Source: a virus | Strand: one strand, 5' to 3' | Virus record (IMG/VR): IMGVR_UViG_3300024520_000385 | Span: 1-28,493 of that record | DNA: 28,493 bases | In this document: in pieces, positions 2 to 12,541 of the stretch | How the letters are laid out: each line of letters starts with the position of its first letter | Position numbering within the stretch: position 1 is the stretch's first letter | Program-made: the position numbers and the translations under genes | The notes under the pieces: generated by a model | Database searches by the model: none | The model's input: the letters and a program-made list of their open reading frames with translations, nothing else | Told to the model about the DNA's origin: nothing

Positions 2-1378
2 GTCAGGGTCAGCGAGCGATTGACGGTCAACGTCACGACGGACGCCATCCGATGGGGAGACTCGGAAGAGTCCATCCGCTTGGCCGGCTCGCTCAGCTTG
101 TGCCAAAGAATGGCCGACCACGTTGGCGGGATGCTCTTGACCGGCGTCGTAGCCGACGCATCGTGGAGCGGCAGCGATGTACAGATTGACCCAATGCCGA
201 TGCCGATTAGCAGCAAGACATCCGCGCTCATCGAGCAGCACGACGCCATTGAGAAGAAGCTAGACGGGCGCCGCGGCATCGTCACCGCTTGGAAAAACTG
301 GACCATCTCCAAAGCTGCCTTCGCAACTGGCCGCGCAACCAATTACGGTTGGCACGTTGAAGGCGAGGCGGCGAGCTACAAAGGCATCAAGCTTTATCCA
401 ACTGTGAGCGATTCGGGCGCGCGAGTCATTCAGGGATTCGCTAGCGCTCACTCCGCTCTTCATGCCGACTATTCGCAGCAATGCCGAATCATGAAGCGAG
501 CAGCGATGCTCGACGGCAAGCGGGTGGACCTTGCCGAGCTAATCACCGGGCCGCAAGCCGACCTGATAAGCCATGAGGGACCGCTCCTCGGATTCCGTCA
601 CCCGCAGGTAAGCGAGGACGTCTTTGACGATGCGGACGACGTAGCGCCGCGTATCACCTTTCCCGGCGAGCGCGGAGAGGATGTTGTGCTCTGGCAAGAG
701 CAGTTAATCAAAGACGGCTTCGGTGAGATTCTAAACCCGAAGAACAAGGCCGACGGCATCCACGGGCCAGCGACCGAGCGAGCGACCGAGCGTTGGCTTG
801 AGTCGAACAGCGGTAGCCGCGACACGATGGCTCCCGAAACTCAGCTAATCACCGGCCACATTCAATCGACCAACTATCGCAAGGCGGGCCGCGATTCCGT
901 CAAGTGGATTGTGCTCCACAGTACCGAGTCAGCAACGGACGCCGCCCACGCGGTGGCGTCGTGGTTCGGCTCTGGAGCTGGCGCGCCGATGGCGAGCGCT
1001 CACTATGTGGTGGACACGTCGTCCGCTTATAGCTGCGTCGATGAAGTTGATATTGCCTATTGTGCTCCGGGCGCGAATGCTTCTGGAATCAATGTCGAGC
1101 TATGCGGGCGAGCGATGAGCACCAACTGGCTTCACGATTGCGCGACGACGCTGGAGCGAGCGGCCGAGATTGTGGCGCGAGCTTGCCGCCGGTGGGACGT
1201 GCCAATCCGAGAAGTCAAGGCGGCTGAGATGATGGCAGGAGAGCGCGGCATCTGTACCCATGCCGAGGTCACGCGAGGAGTTGGCAAGGGCAAGACGAAT
1301 CACGTCGACCCCGGCGGTCCAGACGGGTCCAGATGGCCGATGGCCGAGTTTTTGGAGCTAGTGCGCGCAAAGACCTGA
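2..1378 (+). CDS. N-acetylmuramoyl-L-alanine amidase (endolysin or virion lysin), 5' end outside window
   Basis: Predicted to cleave the amide bond between N-acetylmuramic acid and L-alanine in peptidoglycan. Numbered from the TTG at 20, residues ~217-262 look like a peptidoglycan-binding domain (VLWQEQLIKDGF, then ADGIHGPATERATERW). Residues ~293-450 are an Amidase_2 domain: IVLHSTES with putative zinc ligand His300, SAHYVV, NVEL (Glu360), then THAEV with His414 and NHVDPG near 427-432. The first ~210 residues match nothing I recognise. The frame is open to the window edge with no convincing ribosome site before the TTG, so the true start probably lies upstream. No holin is visible nearby, so endolysin versus tail-associated lysin cannot be settled. 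The amidase call is firm. Confidence 0.85.
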   Translation, partial: VRVSERLTVNVTTDAIRWGDSEESIRLAGSLSLCQRMADHVGGMLLTGVVADASWSGSDVQIDPMPMPISSKTSALIEQHDAIEKKLDGRRGIVTAWKNWTISKAAFATGRATNYGWHVEGEAASYKGIKLYPTVSDSGARVIQGFASAHSALHADYSQQCRIMKRAAMLDGKRVDLAELITGPQADLISHEGPLLGFRHPQVSEDVFDDADDVAPRITFPGERGEDVVLWQEQLIKDGFGEILNPKNKADGIHGPATERATERWLESNSGSRDTMAPETQLITGHIQSTNYRKAGRDSVKWIVLHSTESATDAAHAVASWFGSGAGAPMASAHYVVDTSSAYSCVDEVDIAYCAPGANASGINVELCGRAMSTNWLHDCATTLERAAEIVARACRRWDVPIREVKAAEMMAGERGICTHAEVTRGVGKGKTNHVDPGGPDGSRWPMAEFLELVRAKT

Positions 1379-1436
1379 AAGACGCTACAGAGGGCGATTG
1401 TGGCCGATTGCGGGCTGGCTCTTTTATTTGCCGTTG
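1379..1436 (+). other. Short intergenic stretch, weak terminator-like
   Basis: Non-coding stretch between the amidase stop and the first leader. It has imperfect dyad symmetry (GGCC...GGCTGGC, about 1401-1420) followed by CTTTTATTTG, and a short direct repeat of CGATTG. It may terminate amidase transcription, but it lacks the clean tetraloop hairpin of the later terminators. Confidence 0.3.
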
Positions 1437-1492
1437 TTAGAATAAAACTGTATGCCACCACGTCTAATAAGTAAGAAAGAGAGAGAGACAAG
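1437..1492 (+). promoter_or_regulatory. Repeated leader copy 1 (putative promoter, 5' UTR and RBS)
   Basis: First of seven copies. Block 1 is TTAGAATAAAACTGTATGC, followed by four variable bases (CACC), then block 2 ACGTCTAATAAG, then a purine-rich GAAAGAGAGAGAG tract and the ATG at 1493. The repeat and its fixed spacing are seen directly. Promoter plus ribosome-binding function is inferred from its position before a start codon in every copy. Confidence 0.75.
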
Positions 1493-1816
1493 ATGAGCAG
1501 AACCACCGACACGAGAATTGAGGACACCAAAGACGCAGAATTTCCGGCCACCGGAGCCCGCTGCATCTGGGGACCGGCAGCCGGAAGCCTTCTGTATACG
1601 CCAAGCGAATACGCGAAAAAATGGGACGGAGCCCAGTGGGCCAACGCCGCAATCGGCTCCCGCTTCGGAGGATTCTCCTACGCTGAGCTGAAAATCACCG
1701 GCCGCAAGCTGACTAAAACTCCGGGCGGAGAATACGGAACCCGCTGCCGAATCACCACAAATAAGGGCACCGAAAACGAGCGAACATGGGGAGCTTGGTG
1801 GATCGCTCAGCGATGA
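1493..1816 (+). CDS. Leader-array protein 1, unknown function
   Basis: 107 residues, not recognised. The N-terminus is acidic and polar. The middle is aromatic and glycine-rich (YTPSEYAKKWDGAQWANAAIG, then SRFGGFSYAELKITG), and it ends in TWGAWWIAQR. No signal peptide or membrane segment. The ATG follows the purine tract of leader copy 1, which fixes the start. A strong terminator follows 13 bases after the stop, so it probably makes its own short transcript. Sharing its leader with ArdA suggests an early host-interaction or anti-defence role, which is inference only. Confidence 0.75.
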   Translation: MSRTTDTRIEDTKDAEFPATGARCIWGPAAGSLLYTPSEYAKKWDGAQWANAAIGSRFGGFSYAELKITGRKLTKTPGGEYGTRCRITTNKGTENERTWGAWWIAQR

Positions 1817-1828
1817 CGAGCACCCAAC

Positions 1829-1853
1829 GGCCCGGCGAAAGTCGGGCTTTGTT
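1829..1853 (+). terminator. Rho-independent terminator A (GAAA tetraloop)
   Basis: GCCCGGC, loop GAAA, GTCGGGC form a 7-bp stem with one G-U pair, followed by TTTGTTG. The GNRA-type loop and T-tract are typical of an intrinsic terminator. It lies between leader-array genes 1 and 2 and is almost identical to the terminators at 2191, 2601 and 2915. Confidence 0.85.
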
Positions 1854-1862
1854 GTGCCTTTC

Positions 1863-1915
1863 TTAGAATAAAACTGTATGCCACCACGTCTAATATGCAG
1901 AAAGAGAGAGACAAG
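1863..1915 (+). promoter_or_regulatory. Repeated leader copy 2
   Basis: Same two blocks as copy 1 with variable bases CACC. TAATAAGTAG is changed to TAATATGCAG, which creates a spurious in-frame ATG at 1895 inside the leader. The purine tract and position of the other copies place the real start at 1916. Confidence 0.75.
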
Positions 1916-2176
1916 ATGACTGAATTAGCAACATACCGATGGACAATTACCCGCGACCGAATTTGTGACGGAGAAGACAAGGGCGTCACTGGCCCGCGCA
2001 ATGCCGATGCTTCGCTAGAGGACAACGCTACCCGCTTCTCGATGTATGACGATGACGGCGAATGCTATTACGAGGGAATGCTATACGGCGACTTCGAAGG
2101 CTTCGAGCCGCTGGACGACTTCGGAATGCCGAATGCAGGATGCACAGCGATCAAGCTAAACGGCGAATGGCTCTGA
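1916..2176 (+). CDS. Leader-array protein 2, small acidic protein, unknown function
   Basis: 86 residues, acidic. The core MYDDDGECYYEGMLYGDF and the following GFEPLDDFGMPNAGCTAIK remind me of small conserved proteins of unknown function found in actinobacterial and other phages. That resemblance is from memory and unverified. The start at 1916 is chosen over an in-frame ATG at 1895 because 1895 falls inside the conserved leader and 1916 sits directly after the GAGAGAGACAAG tract, as in the other copies. The acidic, compact character would suit a DNA mimic or inhibitor, but this is speculative. Confidence 0.75.
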   Translation: MTELATYRWTITRDRICDGEDKGVTGPRNADASLEDNATRFSMYDDDGECYYEGMLYGDFEGFEPLDDFGMPNAGCTAIKLNGEWL

Positions 2177-2190
2177 GAACAAGCCCAATC

Positions 2191-2217
2191 AGCCCGGCGA
2201 AAGTCGGGCTTTTCTTT
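2191..2217 (+). terminator. Rho-independent terminator B (GAAA tetraloop)
   Basis: AGCCCGGC, loop GAAA, GTCGGGCT gives an 8-bp stem with one G-U pair, followed by TTTCTTTG. It has the best stem and T-tract of the four copies. It separates genes 2 and 3. Confidence 0.88.
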
Positions 2218-2224
2218 GTGATTC

Positions 2225-2279
2225 TTAGAATAAAACTGTATGCTGCCACGTCTAATAAGCAGAAGGAGAAAAGAACAAC
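2225..2279 (+). promoter_or_regulatory. Repeated leader copy 3
   Basis: Conserved TTAGAATAAAACTGTATGC, variable TGCC, conserved ACGTCTAATAAG, then AGAAGGAGAAAAG as ribosome-binding tract before the ATG at 2280. Confidence 0.75.
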
Positions 2280-2594
2280 ATGAAAAACACCGAAACAGAG
2301 AGTGGACTGAAGAGCTTCATGCTTGCCAAACCCAAGACCAAGATTGCCGCCGAAACCACCAACAATTGCAGAGCTTATGACGCCATCGAATGGGCAGTAG
2401 CCGCGGCAAACAAAGGGCGCCTATGCTGCTTCGATTACCTACACGCCGCCAGCTCGCTTGTCATGATTAGCCCAATATTGTGGACCGAAAAGGAAATCTA
2501 CAGAGCTGCCCTCGAGTGCATCGAAGCGCTTTACTCCAACGGATTCACCCGGCCGCAAGCGATAGCCGCATATCATGCGAGCCGGCGGCTCTAG
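2280..2594 (+). CDS. Leader-array protein 3, unknown function
   Basis: 104 residues, not recognised. The first ~30 residues are Lys/Thr-rich and probably flexible. The rest looks helical (AYDAIEWAVAAANKG, IYRAALECIEALYSNG, PQAIAAYHASRRL). No membrane segment or known catalytic motif. The start is fixed by leader copy 3 with an AGGAGA ribosome site. Terminators lie on both sides, so it is an autonomous cassette like its neighbours. Confidence 0.75.
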   Translation: MKNTETESGLKSFMLAKPKTKIAAETTNNCRAYDAIEWAVAAANKGRLCCFDYLHAASSLVMISPILWTEKEIYRAALECIEALYSNGFTRPQAIAAYHASRRL

Positions 2595-2600
2595 GCCAAC

Positions 2601-2625
2601 GGCCCGGCGAAAGTCGGGCTTTGTT
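2601..2625 (+). terminator. Rho-independent terminator C (GAAA tetraloop)
   Basis: Same hairpin as terminator A: GCCCGGC, GAAA, GTCGGGC, then TTTGTTG. The run from this hairpin into the next leader is essentially identical to the run starting at 1829, indicating duplication or recombination of the whole intergenic unit. Confidence 0.85.
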
Positions 2626-2634
2626 GTGCCTTTC

Positions 2635-2690
2635 TTAGAATAAAGTTGTATGCCAGAACGTCTAATAAGTAGAAAGAGAGAAGAGACAAC
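2635..2690 (+). promoter_or_regulatory. Repeated leader copy 4
   Basis: TTAGAATAAAGTTGTATGC (two changes from consensus), variable CAGA, conserved ACGTCTAATAAG, purine tract GAAAGAGAGAAGAG, ATG at 2691. Confidence 0.75.
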
Positions 2691-2894
2691 ATGAGCAACG
2701 CAACGCTATCCGCTATCCGAATCGACTTGAACAAGTCCGCATGGACATTCTATGCAAAGCACGACGACCAGTGCGCCGTCATGTGCGATGGTTGCGCCAC
2801 GTCCCACGGCTGGCAGGTTGGCCGCGGCGAGGGGTCAGCATACGCGGTCGATAGGTGCGACCAAGACTTAAGGTGCGAAGGATGCGGGCGCTAG
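2691..2894 (+). CDS. Leader-array protein 4, small putative zinc-binding protein
   Basis: 67 residues. Cysteines at 28, 32, 35, 56, 62 and 65 give MCDGC and CEGCGR knuckles about 30 residues apart, consistent with a treble-clef or zinc-ribbon fold. The first 25 residues (SAIRIDLNKSAWTFYAKHDD) look like beta structure. No close family recognised. It could bind nucleic acid or a host protein, but the sequence does not say which. The ATG directly follows leader copy 4, and terminator D follows the stop. Confidence 0.75.
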   Translation: MSNATLSAIRIDLNKSAWTFYAKHDDQCAVMCDGCATSHGWQVGRGEGSAYAVDRCDQDLRCEGCGR

Positions 2895-2914
2895 CCTGCC
2901 GCCATCTAACAAAC

Positions 2915-2940
2915 GGCCCGGCGAAAGTCGGGCTTTGTTG
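2915..2940 (+). terminator. Rho-independent terminator D (GAAA tetraloop)
   Basis: CGGCCCGGC, GAAA, GTCGGGC, TTTGTTG. Fourth near-identical copy. It lies 20 bases after the stop of protein 4 and 8 bases before leader copy 5. Confidence 0.85.
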
Positions 2941-2948
2941 TACGATTC

Positions 2949-3004
2949 TTAGAATAAAACAGTATGCTGGAACGTCTAATAAGCAAGAAAGAGAGAAGAA
3001 GAGG
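2949..3004 (+). promoter_or_regulatory. Repeated leader copy 5
   Basis: TTAGAATAAAACAGTATGC, variable TGGA, conserved ACGTCTAATAAG, purine tract GAAAGAGAGAAGAAGAGG, ATG at 3005. A longer upstream reading frame (from 2855) runs through the terminator and leader and is rejected as the start. Confidence 0.75.
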
Positions 3005-3397
3005 ATGAGAAAAACGGAAGAGGAGCTGAGGGTCATTGCGATTCGGGCACACGGTCAAGTTGAGCGCTATGCAGAGACTGGGCGCCGCCTGACAAGCCGA
3101 ATGTGCCACCAACACGGGACGCGATATTGCGACTGTTGCCCCAATTGCGGAGCAAGGGGCTTGGAGAGCCACGAAGATGGGTGCTGGCGCGATGTGGTAC
3201 GCCCATTCTGTGCCACCCACCTCGCCGTTATTGCCAGCGAATGCCTTACAGTAGAGCAGTGTCTCGCCTGGCTGGACGCATGGCAGAAATTGCTCAACAT
3301 ATTCTGTCTCGAAGCCGAGCGGGCGAACTGGTTTGAGCGCTGGAGTCGGTCGCTACCTTCGAGCCAGCGGAGCGATTGCGATCCCGATGGAAACTGA
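3005..3397 (+). CDS. Leader-array protein 5, Cys/His-rich putative zinc-binding protein
   Basis: 130 residues. A dense metal-site candidate spans residues 34-60: MCHQHGTRYCDCCPNCG, then H56 and C60, with C69 and H72 further on. The C-terminal half is helical (LTVEQCLAWLDAWQKLLNIF) with a Trp/Arg-rich tail. Not recognised as a known family. The start at 3005 follows leader copy 5; earlier in-frame ATGs would translate the terminator and leader. No terminator hairpin precedes the next leader, so transcription may read through into ardA. Confidence 0.72.
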   Translation: MRKTEEELRVIAIRAHGQVERYAETGRRLTSRMCHQHGTRYCDCCPNCGARGLESHEDGCWRDVVRPFCATHLAVIASECLTVEQCLAWLDAWQKLLNIFCLEAERANWFERWSRSLPSSQRSDCDPDGN

Positions 3398-3416
3398 TTC
3401 TTTTCTGGTGCGATTC

Positions 3417-3470
3417 ATCGAATAAAACTGTATGCCAGAACGTCTAATAAGTAGAAGGAAAAAGAACAAC
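3417..3470 (+). promoter_or_regulatory. Repeated leader copy 6 (upstream of ardA)
   Basis: ATCGAATAAAACTGTATGC (left end diverged), variable CAGA, conserved ACGTCTAATAAG, then AGAAGGAAAAAG before the ATG at 3471. No terminator hairpin precedes this copy. Confidence 0.72.
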
Positions 3471-3998
3471 ATGAAAAACAAGAGCCTACAGATCTACGTC
3501 GCTTGCCTGGCGAGCTACAACGCCGGCAAACTTTTCGGAAAATGGATCGACATCACTGACGCGGAAAGCGTTGACGAAGTACACGAGGAAATCAGCGAGA
3601 TGCTGAGTCAGAGCCCGCAACCCTACGCGGAAGAATGGCGCATCGATGACACCGAATATCTCCCCAGCGGACTTGGACTTGAGGGGATGGTCAGCTTTGC
3701 GCTCGCAGTTAGCGAGCACGGCCACCAGAACAGGGAAGCGCTGGCGATGCTTCTCGATGAGGGCTGCGTTACCATCGAAGACCTCTCAACCGAATTTTCA
3801 GACCGCTACAAAGGGAGCTGGGAAGACGGCGTAAGCTTCGCAGAAGACCACGCCGAGCAACTCGGCCTGATTCGCGAAAAAGCCAACGAGCTGGAGCGCC
3901 ATATCGACTGGAAATCCTACGCTCGCGAATTGCTCAGCGAGGAATACTGGGGATGCCGCGGCGCATCTGGAGAGTTTCACGTATTCGCCGGCAGCTGA
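3471..3998 (+). CDS. ardA: ArdA-family anti-restriction protein
   Basis: Predicted cytoplasmic DNA mimic that inhibits type I restriction-modification enzymes by occupying their DNA-binding site (known for the ArdA family). The 175 residues match family length and layout: N-terminal IYVACLASYNAGKLFGKWID (8-27), EEWRIDDTEYLP (54-65), central VSFALAVSEHG, then RYKGSWEDGVSFAEDHAEQL (112-131) and DWKSYARELLSEEYW (146-160) with a final FHVFAGS. The protein is strongly acidic, as a DNA mimic should be. The start at 3471 is set by leader copy 6; an in-frame ATG at 3432 lies inside the leader. This is the only array gene with a recognised job and it suggests the theme of the array. Confidence 0.93.
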   Translation: MKNKSLQIYVACLASYNAGKLFGKWIDITDAESVDEVHEEISEMLSQSPQPYAEEWRIDDTEYLPSGLGLEGMVSFALAVSEHGHQNREALAMLLDEGCVTIEDLSTEFSDRYKGSWEDGVSFAEDHAEQLGLIREKANELERHIDWKSYARELLSEEYWGCRGASGEFHVFAGS

Positions 3999-4003
3999 GA
4001 TTC

Positions 4004-4058
4004 ATAGAATAAAACTATACGCGCCAACGTCTAATAAGTAGAAAGAGAGAAGAAGAGA
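4004..4058 (+). promoter_or_regulatory. Repeated leader copy 7
   Basis: The most diverged copy: ATAGAATAAAACTATACGC, variable GCCA, conserved ACGTCTAATAAG, purine tract GAAAGAGAGAAGAAGAG, ATG at 4059. It starts 6 bases after the ardA stop with no terminator between, so read-through from ardA is likely. Confidence 0.72.
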
Positions 4059-4217
4059 ATGAAAATCCCAGCTCACGCAGTAAAGCCCGGAGACAAGATC
4101 GGAACGGTCGAAGTTTTTGACATAGTGCGCCGCACCTTCGGTGGATTTTATATCCCGATGACAGACGGCTCCCGCTATTGGGTGCGGAGCTTGGCCCAGA
4201 TTGTGACGATCGACTAA
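4059..4217 (+). CDS. Leader-array protein 7, 52-residue unknown protein
   Basis: 52 residues. A small beta-rich protein (AVKPGDKIGTVEVFDIVRR, then GGFYIPMTDGSRYWVRSL), perhaps SH3-like or a small barrel. It is supported mainly by leader copy 7 with its ribosome-binding tract exactly in front of the ATG and by a clean stop at 4215-4217, followed 20 bases later by the next gene. Function unknown. Confidence 0.72.
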   Translation: MKIPAHAVKPGDKIGTVEVFDIVRRTFGGFYIPMTDGSRYWVRSLAQIVTID

Positions 4218-4237
4218 CACTCACGAGGAGAAAAAAC

Positions 4238-4468
4238 ATGGACCCGAATGCAGCACTAATGAACATCGCCTATGAACTATCGGTTAGTTCGCCATCTGGG
4301 CGCCGAGTATTTGTGAGCCAAGAAATCGACGACACGGTTGACGACTTGCGCGAATGGATCGCCGGCGGAGGCTTTGAGCCAGACTGGGAACGCCACCCGC
4401 TCGCCACGAGCTACTACAAGGCGCGAGTGGCAACGCTTGAGCACAGCAAGACAAGGCGGACGGCATGA
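4238..4468 (+). CDS. Small hypothetical protein
   Basis: 76 residues, not recognised. Contains IDDTVDDLREWIAGGGFEPD, helical and acidic, then a basic C-terminus (EHSKTRRTA). The start at 4238 has a strong ACGAGGAGAA ribosome site; an upstream in-frame ATG at 4178 would overlap the previous gene and lacks one. The stop overlaps the next start (ATGA at 4465), implying translational coupling. It is the first gene after the array without the repeated leader. Confidence 0.7.
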   Translation: MDPNAALMNIAYELSVSSPSGRRVFVSQEIDDTVDDLREWIAGGGFEPDWERHPLATSYYKARVATLEHSKTRRTA

Positions 4469-4746
4469 GCAAGGCAGCCACAAAACCCGCCACGCTGGCC
4501 GAGCTGATGGACGCCGTCCAAGACGGGCGCGTTGAGCTGACAGACGAGATGGACGACTTTGGCGGTGAGGAGCCCGATTGCACGGCTGGCGTCTGGAGTT
4601 GGGACGAGGGCCATCTGCTAGTCGGCACCCACGCGGGCGACCTGGAGATAGTGGCGCGCGAGCATCACGCCGCGGAGATTCTGCAACATCACGCCGAGGC
4701 GATGCACGAAGACCGCGAGCTAGCTGAGAAAGCGGAGTGGTCATGA
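4465..4746 (+). CDS. Small acidic hypothetical protein
   Basis: 93 residues, strongly acidic and His-rich toward the end (REHHAAEILQHHAEAMHEDR). Contains MDDFGGEEPDCTAGVWSWDE, then HLLVGTHAGDLEIV. No known family. Coupled by ATGA overlaps to both neighbours (4465 and 4743), so it is part of a run of small early genes. Confidence 0.68.
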   Translation: MSKAATKPATLAELMDAVQDGRVELTDEMDDFGGEEPDCTAGVWSWDEGHLLVGTHAGDLEIVAREHHAAEILQHHAEAMHEDRELAEKAEWS

Positions 4747-4964
4747 GCGCGGAGCTTTTTAAGGATGAGTCGCCCTTTGTTGGATGGGTAGAATTTAAAA
4801 CCGGAGGCGGTAAGATGCGCGGGGAGTACATCGGCGGAAAACAGTGGGCGCTTTATGAGCAACAATCAGGCGGCGCATTTGTGAGATTCTGCACAGTGCA
4901 AGCCGGCAAGGGCGCAACTTGCAATCAACTCTGGGACGCAATCCAATCGGAGTTAAAACCATGA
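4743..4964 (+). CDS. Small hypothetical protein (KTG-type)
   Basis: 73 residues. Beta-rich core ESPFVGWVEFKTGGGKMRGE, then WALYEQQSGGAFVRFCTVQ, resembling small single-stranded-nucleic-acid or 'KTSC'-like folds only loosely; no firm assignment. The ATG at 4743 overlaps the previous stop (ATGA) and is preferred over a GTG two codons upstream. The stop overlaps the start of the membrane peptide at 4961. Confidence 0.65.
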   Translation: MSAELFKDESPFVGWVEFKTGGGKMRGEYIGGKQWALYEQQSGGAFVRFCTVQAGKGATCNQLWDAIQSELKP

Positions 4965-5032
4965 AGCGCTATCTCTTCGACGCCCTAGCGGGCGCAATTT
5001 TAGCGGCGGCTTTGGTGGCCGTTTGCCTGTAA
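4961..5032 (+). CDS. 23-residue single-span membrane peptide
   Basis: Short frame: a basic start (MKRYLFD) then an unbroken hydrophobic run ALAGAILAAALVAVCL to the stop. It would cross the inner membrane once. Support comes from the exact ATGA coupling to the gene before it and the coherent positive-inside hydrophobic layout. Function unknown; it might be a membrane-targeted host-modulating peptide. Short enough to be chance. Confidence 0.45.
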   Translation: MKRYLFDALAGAILAAALVAVCL

Positions 5033-5053
5033 CAAAAAACAAGAGGACACCGA

Positions 5054-5245
5054 ATGGGACTGAAAGAGAAATTAAAAACCGAGCGAGCCCGAGCCAAGCT
5101 GACGCAAGAGCAGTTGGCCGAGCGGCTAGACATCTCACGACAACACGTCAGCAAGTGGGAAACGGGAGCGAGCGAGCCTAGCTTGAAACTTTTCCGGCGG
5201 CTTGTTATCGCGCTAAACTGCTCGCCCGCTGACCTCATCCAATAG
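5054..5245 (+). CDS. Cro/CI-type (XRE) helix-turn-helix regulator
   Basis: 63 residues, essentially one HTH_3 domain: LTQEQLAERLDISRQHVSKW (residues ~16-35) followed by ETGASEPSLKLFRRLVIALN. The helix-turn-helix QEQLAERLDISRQHVSKWE is intact and there is no dimerisation or protease domain, so it resembles Cro rather than a full CI repressor. An AAGAGGAC ribosome site precedes the ATG. Placed between the accessory genes and the recombination genes, it may control this operon or the leader array; its operators are not identified. Confidence 0.85.
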   Translation: MGLKEKLKTERARAKLTQEQLAERLDISRQHVSKWETGASEPSLKLFRRLVIALNCSPADLIQ

Positions 5246-5264
5246 AAAACAGAAAGAGAAAAAC

Positions 5265-5969
5265 ATGAACGACATCGAAGAAAGCGAAGAAGGGGGATTT
5301 CTCCCGCTAACGTCGGCCAAGGTTGACAAGATTATGCCACAGCTAGTCAAGGCGCAATCCGAAATGGGGAGTCCAAAGTTCGACAAGACAAACCCGCACT
5401 TCAAGACCAAATACGCTTCACTCGGTGAGATGTATCGAGCAGCAAAGCCCGCGCTCAATGCTCACGGTATGACGCTGACTCAGCCGGTCCGCTCTTACGA
5501 AGTGGTAACGCGGGTAACCCACAGCAGCGGGCAATGGGTTCAGTCTAGCGTGCCAATCATAACAACTCGGCCAGGCTCGCAGGACTTTGGCAGCGGGTTG
5601 ACCTACGCGAAGCGGCAGGGACTTTGCTCGCTCCTCGCCATCGCTGGAGAAGAAGACGACGACGGCGAGTCGCAAGCTCGGTCACCAAAGAGCACAAAGA
5701 AAAAACACCAGCTCATAACAAAGGAAACAGCCGCAGAGGTTAGCCGGATTCTTGGCCTATACGCGGACGCCAAGACACTAGACGACATCGCGATCGCCAA
5801 GGATTGCGTTACGGCAATCTGGAAGAAGTGCCACGATGAAAGCCGGCGAAAGCTGCAAGCGGCCCACGAGCGAGCCGACGAGCGAATCGACTTGGCCGAT
5901 GACCCGCTTGAAATCGCAATCGCTAGCGCGAAAGACGGCGCACGAAAAGCAAAGGAGAGCAAATCATGA
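5265..5969 (+). CDS. erf: Erf-family single-strand annealing recombinase
   Basis: Anneals complementary single strands during phage recombination and genome circularisation (known for P22 Erf relatives). Family motifs: NPHFKTKYASLGEMYRAAKP (43-62), LNAHGMTLTQP (64-74) and GLTYAKRQGLCSLLAIAGEE (111-130) followed by DDDG. The C-terminal ~90 residues are charged and helical, a likely oligomerisation or partner-binding region. Ribosome site GAAAGAGAAA. The stop overlaps the following nuclease start (ATGA at 5966), fitting an annealing protein/exonuclease pair. Confidence 0.88.
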   Translation: MNDIEESEEGGFLPLTSAKVDKIMPQLVKAQSEMGSPKFDKTNPHFKTKYASLGEMYRAAKPALNAHGMTLTQPVRSYEVVTRVTHSSGQWVQSSVPIITTRPGSQDFGSGLTYAKRQGLCSLLAIAGEEDDDGESQARSPKSTKKKHQLITKETAAEVSRILGLYADAKTLDDIAIAKDCVTAIWKKCHDESRRKLQAAHERADERIDLADDPLEIAIASAKDGARKAKESKS

Positions 5970-7240
5970 GCGGCCCGCTATGCTCTGGCAGTACAACTCA
6001 GCGCGTCAGCGAATGCGGAGCGCCCGAAGCGGCAGCGGAAGCGGGCGAGCCTTGGCAAGAGCCCGATCGCACCGTTGGCTTTCCGGCTCACAGAGGGACG
6101 CTAATTCACGGACGATGGGAGCAGATGTTAACGTATCGCCCGGCGCTTCTGCCGGATATTGGCGAGCTAATCAACGAGCTTGAAGTGGCCGACGTTATTC
6201 CATTCGGCCTGGAGTTTGACCTTGAAAATGTCGAGCTTAGGGCGCGAGCATTCGCGGACAAGGTTGCCGAGGAATTTCCAGCGGACGACTACAATCTGAA
6301 GCTTGAAAAGAAACGAGCCTTCAGCCCATACGGAAACCCGACGGTTGGCTTTACAGGGTACGAGGCGGACGCGGGCGGCCATAGAAACTATGAGGAGGTC
6401 GATGGCGGTGACATTGCGCTAACAACGGACCTCGAAGCCTGGCCAGAGTTTGACGGCGGGACGATCGTAAACGTGGACGGCAAGACGGGACGCCGCGAGA
6501 ACGTCACGCCGGCGCGCCACAATATGCAGGGACTATCGGCAGCTTGCGCGATTCGATACGGGACGCACCAGACGGCGCAAGTGCGCCGCGGAGAAGCACC
6601 GGACCCTATCCGCTTCGAGCTTTGGTTTGTTGGCGAGGACGGCAGCATCGAGGTGGACGGCTGGACCTACAGCGACGAAGAAATCGAAGCGGCAGCGGTC
6701 AAGCTCTGCAAGATGGCCGGACGAATTGCTTCGGGCTACTGGCCGCCCGTCGTTGGCGAGCACTGCACAAAGAACTGGTGTAGCTACCGCCGAGTCTGTC
6801 CGGCTCAAGGGCAAGCGCTCGCCACGATTAGCAAGAAGCCGGTCATCATTGAGCCCGGGGCCGAGCTGGCGGAAGTAACCAACAACGCGCAAGCGCTCAA
6901 GGCGATCGCCTTCCTGCCTGGCGTCAAAAAACTAATCAAGGAGCTGGAGTCAAGCTTGAAAGAATACTCCGCGGACAATGAAATCACACGAGAAGAGGAC
7001 GACAAGAAGTGGGAAGCAAAAGAAAGTCCGCGCTTTTCTGGGCTCACCGAAAGCGGTATGGTGATGCTGACCGAATTGACTGCGGACGACGGCGAGCTTG
7101 ATGAGTTGGCTCCGCGAAAACTAAACCGGTCAGCACTAAAGGGGCTTGGCAAAGAAAGGGAAGCGGAGATAATGAAAGCCATCTCTGACGCTGGAGGCAT
7201 TGTCGAAACGACAACGACCCGTTATGGGTGGCGCAAGTGA
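5966..7240 (+). CDS. PD-(D/E)XK nuclease, Cas4/DUF2800-like
   Basis: Predicted recombination exonuclease partner of Erf. Motifs in order: GTLIHGRWE (44-52, the G-x-x-x-H helix of RecB/Cas4-type nucleases), acidic residue near D155, IVNVDGKTG (167-175, the D-x-K catalytic strand), a Gln-containing helix around 188 (NMQGLSAACA), and a C-terminal Cys cluster C267, C272, C278 (EHCTKNWCSYRRVCPA) that in relatives helps hold an iron-sulfur cluster. After residue ~290 there is a helical region and a tail of unknown role. Start at 5966, coupled to erf. Confidence 0.82.
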   Translation: MSGPLCSGSTTQRVSECGAPEAAAEAGEPWQEPDRTVGFPAHRGTLIHGRWEQMLTYRPALLPDIGELINELEVADVIPFGLEFDLENVELRARAFADKVAEEFPADDYNLKLEKKRAFSPYGNPTVGFTGYEADAGGHRNYEEVDGGDIALTTDLEAWPEFDGGTIVNVDGKTGRRENVTPARHNMQGLSAACAIRYGTHQTAQVRRGEAPDPIRFELWFVGEDGSIEVDGWTYSDEEIEAAAVKLCKMAGRIASGYWPPVVGEHCTKNWCSYRRVCPAQGQALATISKKPVIIEPGAELAEVTNNAQALKAIAFLPGVKKLIKELESSLKEYSADNEITREEDDKKWEAKESPRFSGLTESGMVMLTELTADDGELDELAPRKLNRSALKGLGKEREAEIMKAISDAGGIVETTTTRYGWRK

Positions 7241-10715: not shown

Positions 10716-11312
10716 ATGAGTAAAGTTGTTCACGACGTGGACTTTAGCGCTTGTGCCGATTCAGAGGCGCTCGCTAAACAAAGGATCACGGTCTATCTCG
10801 ACAAGACCACAGCGAAGCGCTTGAGAATAGCCGCAGCCACCGACGACCGCAGTTTATCTGATATTGCGGAGGAGGCTATCTTGGCCCACGCTAATAGGAG
10901 CCAAGAATCTGAGATCAAGATGACCCTTGAGACCATTCTTAGCAAGGCGGAAGAGCAGGGCGAGAGATTGGCCAAGCTTTGCTCTTTCACCTATACAGGA
11001 AAGAAGAAGCGCCCAACGATAATTACTAGAAATCGGCACGTGGAATACCTCATCAACGAGCTTCGCGAGTTTCCTTGCTGCTATGAGCCGGTCGGTGAGT
11101 CCAAGGTCGAGATAGACCATATGGATCTGACGAGTGATGCGACCTTTGACGGCACTTGGCCAACCTGCACGGATTGCAATAGGGCGATGAACAAGCCGAC
11201 GGAGCGCCATCGTAGGCGCCCACGGTTTCACGCCTATCATGACAAATATAAGAAAGTTCATCCCGACGAAAACCTTCAGCTGGACCTCGGACTTGATGGG
11301 GACGGCGAATGA
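10716..11312 (+). CDS. HNH endonuclease fused to a ribbon-helix-helix domain
   Basis: 198 residues. N-terminal residues ~21-60 (KQRITVYLDKTTAKRLRIAA, then RSLSDIAEEAILAHA) read as a CopG/Arc-type ribbon-helix-helix DNA-binding domain. Residues ~118-160 form an HNH finger: FPCCYEP, VEIDHMDL (D134-H135), and WPTCTDCNRAMNK with C151, C154 and N155. HNH proteins beside terminase genes are known to assist cutting of packaged DNA in HK97-like phages. The extra binding domain could target it to a specific site such as the adjacent non-coding region; that is inference. Confidence 0.8.
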   Translation: MSKVVHDVDFSACADSEALAKQRITVYLDKTTAKRLRIAAATDDRSLSDIAEEAILAHANRSQESEIKMTLETILSKAEEQGERLAKLCSFTYTGKKKRPTIITRNRHVEYLINELREFPCCYEPVGESKVEIDHMDLTSDATFDGTWPTCTDCNRAMNKPTERHRRRPRFHAYHDKYKKVHPDENLQLDLGLDGDGE

Positions 11313-12541
11313 AGGTGCAATCGATTGCGGTCGCGGAATTGGTCAACGACCCTTCCAACGTGCGAAAGCACAGCGGCAAGAACCTTGACGCTATCAAGGG
11401 CAGCCTGGCCAGGTTTGGCCAACAGAAGCCGATTGTGGTCGGAGCTGATGGCGTAGTGGTCGCGGGCAACGGAACGCTTGAAGCTGCCAAGGCGCTAGGC
11501 TGGCAGAAGATTGACGCGGTCAAGACTGGGCTCAAGGGCAGCGATAGGACGGCCTTCGCCATCGCGGACAACCGGACGAGTGAGCTCGCCGAGTGGGACG
11601 ATGCAGCGCTAGCCGAGCAGCTTAGCGCGTTGGCCATAGACGATGAGGAGCTGTTAGCGGCTGCGGGCTTCGATGAGGCCGAGCTTGAGAAGCTGGTTAG
11701 CGAGACGACCGGCATGGAGGACATCGTTGAAGACGAAGCTCCAGAGCCACCGGCTGACCCGGTGACGAAGCCGGGCGACTTGTGGCAGCTTGGCGAGCAT
11801 CGGGTGTTATGCGGTGACTCGACGAAGGCCGAAGACGTGGCGCTAGCGATGGGTGGCGAGAAGGCCGGGATGATGGTCACAGACCCGCCCTACAACGTTG
11901 AGTATGAGGGGAACTATATCCAAAGCGGGCGCATACTCAGAAAGGACCAAAAGGTTTGGTCTGGTGGAATTGCAAACGACAACCTTTCAGATTTTGGGGA
12001 GTGGCTAGGCTCAGCCTTTGCCGCAAGCGATGTAGCCATGAAAGAGGGCGCGGCCATTTACGTTTGGCACCCTTCCGGCGAAGACGGGAAGCACTTCTGG
12101 GCTGCGTGGCCGTATGATAAATGGCATTTTCAAGTGGACCTAGTATGGAACAAAACCTCGCTGATTATTAGCCGATGGGACTACAAGCCGCAGCACGAGC
12201 CTTGTATGTACGGATGGAAGGGTAAAAACAGGTCTTGGATAGGTCCAAACAACGAGCCCACCGTTTGGGATATACCGAGACAGCAAGGTGCATCTGGGGA
12301 AACGAGAAAGCATCCTACACAAAAGCCGGTAGAGTGCATGGCTCGTGCTATCCGCAATCACGGCGGGTCCGTCTTTGACCCCTTTCTAGGCTCAGGGACA
12401 ACGCTCATCGCCGCCGAGCAGTTAGGCCGAAAGTGCTACGGGATTGAAATCTCGCCGGCCTATTGCGACGTGATTGTGGAGCGCTGGCAGAATCTAACCG
12501 GCAAGAAGGCCAAGAGGGTAGCTGATGGCAAAGCAGCCTAA
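11309..12541 (+). CDS. ParB-domain / DNA methyltransferase fusion (beta class)
   Basis: Residues ~1-95 are a ParB/Srx-like domain (VAELVNDPSNVRKHSGKNLD, then GQQKPIVVGADGVVVAGNGT LEAAKALGW). Residues ~150-395 are an N6-adenine/N4-cytosine methyltransferase with catalytic DPPY (192-195) before the SAM-binding DPFLGSGTT (357-365), plus HPTQKP (335-340), the beta-class order. DPPY favours adenine. The region between (200-330) is the target-recognition part. This fusion is common beside phage terminases. Likely role: modify phage DNA against restriction or mark it for packaging. Coupled by ATGA to the HNH gene. Confidence 0.88.
   Translation: MKVQSIAVAELVNDPSNVRKHSGKNLDAIKGSLARFGQQKPIVVGADGVVVAGNGTLEAAKALGWQKIDAVKTGLKGSDRTAFAIADNRTSELAEWDDAALAEQLSALAIDDEELLAAAGFDEAELEKLVSETTGMEDIVEDEAPEPPADPVTKPGDLWQLGEHRVLCGDSTKAEDVALAMGGEKAGMMVTDPPYNVEYEGNYIQSGRILRKDQKVWSGGIANDNLSDFGEWLGSAFAASDVAMKEGAAIYVWHPSGEDGKHFWAAWPYDKWHFQVDLVWNKTSLIISRWDYKPQHEPCMYGWKGKNRSWIGPNNEPTVWDIPRQQGASGETRKHPTQKPVECMARAIRNHGGSVFDPFLGSGTTLIAAEQLGRKCYGIEISPAYCDVIVERWQNLTGKKAKRVADGKAA

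Follow-up and report, generated by a model that had tools for sequence, protein, structure and literature searches.

A moron is a phage gene that carries its own promoter and terminator. In SIRV2 and related archaeal viruses, unrelated anti-defence genes stand behind one virus-specific early regulatory sequence, by which new inhibitors were found (PMC11065993); in pLS20-family plasmids, the establishment genes (EGeRS1 and EGeRS2) have been termed anti-defence islands and are swapped between relatives (PMC8708921); cluster K mycobacteriophages carry SAS and ESAS elements, the latter 46-47 bp long and containing, besides a putative promoter, an imperfect inverted repeat (PMC3203893, PMC11373665); and cluster A mycobacteriophages carry stoperators, 13-bp sites found genome-wide and bound by the immunity repressor (PMC9283540). 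Here we analyse an array of seven small genes (units 1-7) in a 28.5 kb piece of a tailed-phage genome (IMG/VR record IMGVR_UViG_3300024520_000385; 28,493 nt, hereafter the window), each of which follows a copy of the same leader. The array looks like a swappable kit against bacterial defences, in which the only recognisable function is that of the anti-restriction protein ArdA.

With the SIRV2 type, the array shares its unrelated small genes, a near-identical virus-specific upstream sequence, a content that varies between relatives, a known anti-defence gene among the members (here ArdA), and a DNA-binding protein as likely or, here, candidate regulator; it differs in that the SIRV2 type has an archaeal B recognition element (BRE)/TATA promoter and measured early expression, whereas the window belongs to a tailed bacterial phage, has terminators between units, and is known from sequence alone. 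The repeat of the SIRV2 type contains a strong promoter; the window leader has no sigma-70 match and is a bipartite constrained site. Like pLS20, it has its genes clustered and preceded by repeated control regions, includes an anti-restriction gene (in pLS20, ardC), and shows replacement between close relatives, but the control regions of EGeRS1 are 400-600 bp long, those of EGeRS2 consist of sigma-A promoters with TTATCCCnnTTATCCC operators, neither kind occurs in the window, and the carrier is a plasmid rather than a phage; the EGeRS2 dual motif TTATCCCnnTTATCCC has one match in the window, outside the array and with 3 mismatches, which is chance level. Stoperators are likewise repeated, asymmetric intergenic sites, and in phage Trixie one of them lies 5' of a relative of unit 2; their consensus, which we take to be GGTGGMTGTCAAG, has 2 matches in the window, each with 2 mismatches and both outside the array, again at chance level. 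Like morons, the units are small accessory genes with their own control element and, for units 1-4, their own terminator; unlike morons, they are seven tandem genes sharing one element, with terminators on four and a promoter that is putative.

The ESAS of cluster K resemble the leader in being short repeats just 5' of the starts of unrelated small genes, with a conserved stretch at the ribosome site, but they differ in sequence, are dispersed, and contain SigA-like hexamers, whereas the window has one contiguous array in which no such hexamers 17-18 bp apart are found; the SAS sequence GGGATAGGAGCCC has 0 matches in the window at <=2 mismatches. This comparison is apter than was held in a preliminary description of the locus, which had called it loose, since ESAS have a putative promoter and an inverted repeat (PMC11373665). 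Because their defining sequences are absent, the array falls outside the SAS, EGeRS2, and stoperator kinds; it resembles the SIRV2, pLS20, and ESAS systems in logic, and by its sequence is a member of none.

The leader is confined to the array and constrained as DNA

The leader motif, GAATAAAACTGTATGC-N4-ACGTCTAATA, occurs in seven copies with 0-2 mismatches (expected by chance: 0.00), and every leader, about 52 bases long, begins 50-53 nt 5' of an ATG (Table 1). The leader ends in a ribosome-binding stretch; alternative upstream start codons for units 2 and 6 (at 1895 and 3432) lie within the leader, and because of this stretch the downstream ATGs were chosen. A position matrix finds no further sites in the genome: the true sites score 48-55 bits, the next best 3.9, and the shuffle maximum is 6.9. 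Apart from the window, just two IMG/VR records carry the leader: a 37.5 kb twin that spans the entire window with 99.3% identity (IMGVR_UViG_3300024518_002631, G001), and a 35.4 kb sister phage with a five-unit array (IMGVR_UViG_3300033153_003685, G002). A looser core pattern is found in 23 stretches of IMG/VR, with more than one match only in these two viruses; GenBank phages hold nothing that matches the array, and the relaxed leader motif has zero matches in GTDB genomes. The preliminary description, whose protein lengths agree with those in Table 1, had already placed each of the seven genes behind the same leader.

The 12 leader copies of the two phages share the invariant columns GAATAAA, TA.GC, ACGTCTAATA, and one G; the 4 bases that separate the boxes are free in sequence and constant in length, and recognising them as a fixed-length gap between constrained boxes adds to what had been described. 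In the 4 gene pairs common to both phages, 3 of 112 core sites differ (28 core positions), against 7 of 16 gap sites (Fisher p=1.2e-5), in a comparison where the number of sites is small and gene and leader may not have moved as a pair. A core that is frozen while its fixed 4-bp gap varies argues for a selected bipartite DNA site, and two boxes at fixed spacing just 5' of a ribosome-binding stretch are best read as a promoter/operator, which is what the leader most likely is. The left box reads as an imperfect palindrome, GAATA-N6-TATGC, and the spacing of GAATA-N16-CGTC is presumably that of a promoter of the extracytoplasmic function (ECF) type; both are leads only. The leader matches no RNA family in Rfam, and a folding test finds no stable RNA fold in it.

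Terminator-like hairpins follow the first four units

A hairpin with a GNRA loop and a U-rich tail, GCCCGGCGAAAGTCGGGC, occurs in four identical copies after units 1-4, and hence before units 2-5, as had been noticed earlier; its folding z-scores range from -2.9 to -4.4, and zero copies are found elsewhere in the genome. No terminator is found after units 5, 6, and 7, and unit 7 is separated from the next gene by just 20 nt; units 5-7 thus probably run on into the block of the helix-turn-helix (HTH) protein, Erf, and exonuclease, so that leader 7 would also head that operon. The proposal that the genes are made from independent transcripts therefore fits the terminators after units 1-4 and is too simple for the remaining units. 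Between paralogous positions, terminator plus leader reach up to 93% identity, while the proteins behind them show no convincing homology to one another: among 45 comparisons, the strongest is a stretch of 30 residues common to units 1 and 5 (E=0.007), in line with the lack of visible homology reported before.

The array is reshuffled in the sister phage

Outside the array, the sister phage is close to the window phage, with protein identities of 97% for the terminase, 96% for the portal, 95% for the capsid, 97% for the helicase loader, 80% for the exonuclease, and 64% for the methyltransferase, the backbone lying mostly at 80-97%. Its array has five leaders. The first slot holds a chimera in which the N-terminal ~25 residues are those of unit 3 and the body is unrelated, the second holds unit 1 (58%), the third a new 28-aa open reading frame (ORF) followed by a truncated unit 5 that has no leader of its own, and the last slots hold ArdA (93%) and unit 7 (98%); units 2 and 4 are not present. 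Relative to the window, the order is thus changed, two genes are lost, one is gained, one is chimeric, and one is truncated, which makes the array more variable than any other part of the block compared, with its two right-hand units stable. The sequence 5' of the first leader is nearly identical in both phages; the breakpoint at which the first gene was exchanged therefore falls at the first unit or just within it. Behind the leader, the relative has ArdA and small accessory genes rather than structural ones, but its last leader also leads into ordinary recombination genes, so that the refuting condition set in the preliminary description is decided in neither direction.

ArdA and the family of unit 2

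Unit 6 matches PF07275 (E=6.6e-24; 85.7 bits, cut-off 27), the PHROG anti-restriction protein (E=4.5e-24), and the solved ArdA structure 2w82, so that the identification made earlier from the letters alone stands; by these matches it is an ordinary ArdA, of which the setting alone is unusual. Units 1, 3, 4, 5, and 7 match nothing above the family cut-off in Pfam, all seven units have zero matches in NCBIfam and PADLOC, and from these three sources units 1, 3, 4, 5, and 7 obtain no functional hint. For unit 1, no relatives are found outside the window phage with its twin and the sister phage, and its structure model is not usable (predicted local distance difference test, pLDDT, 35).

Unit 2 belongs to a family with at least 122 relatives in IMG/VR, in which acidity is conserved (median isoelectric point, pI, 4.26 among 67 relatives). 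Its fold is predicted with a pLDDT of 92; the model has no significant relative among solved structures and matches only uncharacterised proteins among viral ones. The phage inhibitors p56 and Dmd, considered as fold relatives, stand in the top rows at E about 1 and a template modelling (TM) score of about 0.3, which is not evidence. In locus L195 (positions 343-5524; part of the 110 kb record IMGVR_UViG_2890725172_000001), three ArdA-like genes lie around a unit-2 relative, two directly 3' of it and the third about 3 kb upstream; one of the three is above the Pfam cut-off. In cluster A mycobacteriophages, Trixie gp87 (a unit-2 relative) and Astro gp93 (ArdA) lie in the same right-arm block of small genes. 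The idea that unit 2 is a regular neighbour of ArdA was dropped, any ArdA occurring in just 1 of 50 records. L195 and the conserved acidity link the family weakly to anti-defence, and alongside ArdA, unit 2 is probably another acidic protein that counters host defences.

Interpretation of the array

We favour, at a probability of roughly 0.55, the reading that the array is a fast-turnover island of accessory genes with portable promoter/operator leaders, carrying counter-defence or takeover genes. Each ~52-bp leader would be a portable control element, a bipartite promoter/operator site joined to a ribosome-binding stretch, that lets a newly arrived, unrelated small gene be expressed at once, probably early in infection; early expression suits the place of the array at the head of the recombination/replication block. 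The shared terminators would hold units 1-4 largely monocistronic; leaders 5-7 would feed into each other, and leader 7 would continue into the HTH-Erf-exonuclease block. The repeats may also supply homology for the exchange and deletion of cassettes, possibly via the neighbouring Erf-type annealing protein. Within the island, ArdA is the anti-restriction protein, unit 2 probably serves counter-defence as well, and the remaining units are candidate counter-defence or takeover proteins.

ArdA, together with the acidic unit 2 and its suggestive family, makes the anti-defence part of this reading plausible. Several observations weigh against the favoured reading: only 1 of the 7 genes belongs to a known counter-defence family, no sigma-70 promoter hexamers are recognisable in the array region, of 50 phages that carry a unit-2 relative, 49 show no ArdA, and known counter-defence families account for 0 of the 51 genes behind analogous repeats in other phages. 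The anti-defence island of the preliminary description thus holds for ArdA and weakly for unit 2, while units 1, 3, 4, 5, and 7 match no family. If the leader does mark counter-defence genes, this sequence signature by itself would nominate six further candidate inhibitors here and many more behind the repeats of other phages, for which the discovery of inhibitors in archaeal viruses is a precedent (PMC11065993); and it would show how phages swap counter-defence genes without rebuilding their regulation.

Other readings give the repeats a different role. They could be stoperator-like repressor or roadblock sites that silence the region in a lysogen and leave transcription to a single upstream promoter, as the palindromic left box, the HTH protein downstream, and the stoperators found 5' of genes in the region of the unit-2 relative in Trixie (cluster A; PMC9283540) might suggest. 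Stoperators, however, are genome-wide (PMC9283540), whereas the seven sites lie in one block at a fixed distance of 50-53 nt from a start codon; the terminators between units 1-4 would interrupt one long transcript, and the stoperator consensus occurs at chance level only, which together make such silencing unlikely. That the repeats are mainly duplication relics of one 5' region, in an array of unrelated, non-defence genes, would fit the identity of up to 93% between paralogous terminator-leader units, the reshuffling ongoing in the sister phage, and the lack of a functional hint for 5 of the 7 genes; this is nevertheless improbable, as duplication would not yield a fast-changing 4-bp gap in an almost frozen core in two phages.

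The leader might finally work on translation, as a start-associated signal or an upstream ORF, rather than on transcription. It ends in a ribosome-binding stretch, SAS elements have been proposed to act on translation (PMC3203893), and in 10 of the 12 leader copies a short frame begins at the ATG of TATGC, four of these frames terminating on the start of the gene itself. Both unit-7 copies, however, have ACG in place of this ATG, the frame is not constant relative to the gene, and its wobble positions are invariant; the ACG and the wobble positions place the constraint on nucleotides and not on a peptide, and rule out the upstream ORF as the cause of conservation. As there is furthermore no RNA fold, and the frozen part starts about 50 nt upstream, past the ribosome site, we consider an action on translation very unlikely, and retain the portable promoter/operator as the favoured reading of the leader.

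Neighbouring genes

The genes of the window share one orientation. An amidase endolysin and the array come first, followed by the HTH protein, the Erf annealing protein, the exonuclease, a helicase loader, a RusA-like resolvase, the ParB/methyltransferase, and then terminase, portal, capsid, tail sheath, and tape measure. This places the array between lysis on one side and recombination/replication on the other, and by this gene content, tail sheath included, the phage is a myovirus. Capsid relatives do not single out a host, with Clostridia and Alphaproteobacteria both at about 40%. The HTH protein is a candidate regulator of the array, and the Erf-like protein a candidate agent of cassette exchange. 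The ParB/methyltransferase fusion (11309-12541) is 64% identical to its counterpart in the sister phage, where neighbouring genes are mostly at 90-97%; it is possibly a second fast-changing answer to restriction. A different start-associated stretch, TAACACTYACGAGGAGAAA, occurs at 4218-4237 of the window and at 4253-4277 of L027; in the window it stands ahead of the gene at 4238, in the sister phage ahead of unit 5.

Table 1. Leaders, units, terminators, and adjoining genes (window coordinates).
Feature	Position	Strand	Evidence and remarks
Leader 1	1440..1492	+	motif, 0 mismatches; 53 nt to ATG
Unit 1, 107 aa, basic, pI 9.5	1493..1816	+	no family; 58% relative in sister phage only
Terminator after unit 1	1829..1848	+	hairpin and folding test
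Leader 2	1866..1915	+	motif match; distance to ATG
Unit 2, 86 aa, acidic, pI 4.05	1916..2176	+	phrog_12268, E=2e-14
Terminator after unit 2	2191..2210	+	hairpin and folding test
Leader 3	2228..2279	+	motif match; distance to ATG
Unit 3, 104 aa	2280..2594	+	no family; sister phage keeps ~25 N-terminal residues, remainder replaced
Terminator after unit 3	2601..2620	+	hairpin and folding test
Leader 4	2638..2690	+	motif, 2 mismatches
Unit 4, 67 aa, 6 Cys	2691..2894	+	no family; not in sister phage
Terminator after unit 4	2915..2934	+	hairpin and folding test
Leader 5	2952..3004	+	motif, 1 mismatch
Unit 5, 130 aa, 11 Cys	3005..3397	+	no family; sister copy truncated, without own leader
Leader 6	3420..3470	+	motif match; distance to ATG
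Unit 6, ArdA anti-restriction protein, 175 aa, pI 4.45	3471..3998	+	PF07275; 93% in sister phage
Leader 7	4007..4058	+	motif, 2 mismatches; no terminator downstream
Unit 7, 52 aa	4059..4217	+	no family; 98% in sister phage
Cro/CI-type HTH protein, 63 aa	5054..5245	+	PF01381, E=6.6e-17; 3' of leader 7, no + strand terminator-like site between
Erf-like single-stranded DNA annealing protein	5265..5969	+	phrog_2324, E=3.9e-38
Exonuclease, same operon as Erf	5966..7240	+	phrog_69, E=7e-10

Start-associated repeats in other phages

Loci with unit-2 relatives often carry repeats of their own before successive genes, with sequences that are unrelated. An upstream 12-mer present at least 3 times is found for 42 of 659 ORFs at unit-2 loci, against 6 of 910 at structural prophage loci; because this control is not compartment-matched and the window's twin is among the unit-2 loci, the excess may simply reflect what early regions generally look like. 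The elements differ completely in type, from the palindrome-like box of the window to co-varying hairpins (L126) and terminator-like hairpins (L194). That phage-specific start-associated arrays of unrelated accessory genes form a general plug-in platform for counter-defence in tailed bacterial phages, with phrog_12268 as a recurrent, new acidic family of anti-restriction type, is as a joint proposal tentative and rather doubtful. Unit 2 was also considered as a gene regularly found behind a repeat itself, of which there are only a few clear cases (MissSwiss, Kumao, L126).

The clearest analogous array, L126 (1959-7440; IMGVR_UViG_3300030106_005739), has 13 start-associated leaders, unrelated in sequence to that of the window and mostly 64-69 nt 5' of the starts of successive small genes, a unit-2 relative included; 12 of the 13 bear co-varying, exactly inverted arms of 10-12 bp (GTGTACCCC/GGGGTACAC, GTACACCCCC/GGGGGTGTAC, GTATACCCCC/GGGGGTATAC, GTATCCCCCC/GGGGGGATAC). 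In Arthrobacter phage MissSwiss (L032, 1139-2917), AGACTGTTTACAC lies 35-50 nt 5' of four successive genes, which encode, in order, an SprT-like protease, an uncharacterised protein, a unit-2 relative, and another uncharacterised protein. A large palindromic element, CTACTACTTAGCTTACTACGTAAGCAGTAG, stands 5' of successive small genes in L165 (1322-2750 and 6664), with one extra copy just 3' of the 3' end of an apparent tRNA gene; in L194 (1496-5196), a GC-rich terminator-like hairpin followed by AGCTTTCACCCACTC stands 5' of at least 6 successive small genes; and in two phages, L201 and L204, TATGCTTAGAGTACCAA is found 5' of several small genes, with TTGACA-like hexamers upstream of some copies.

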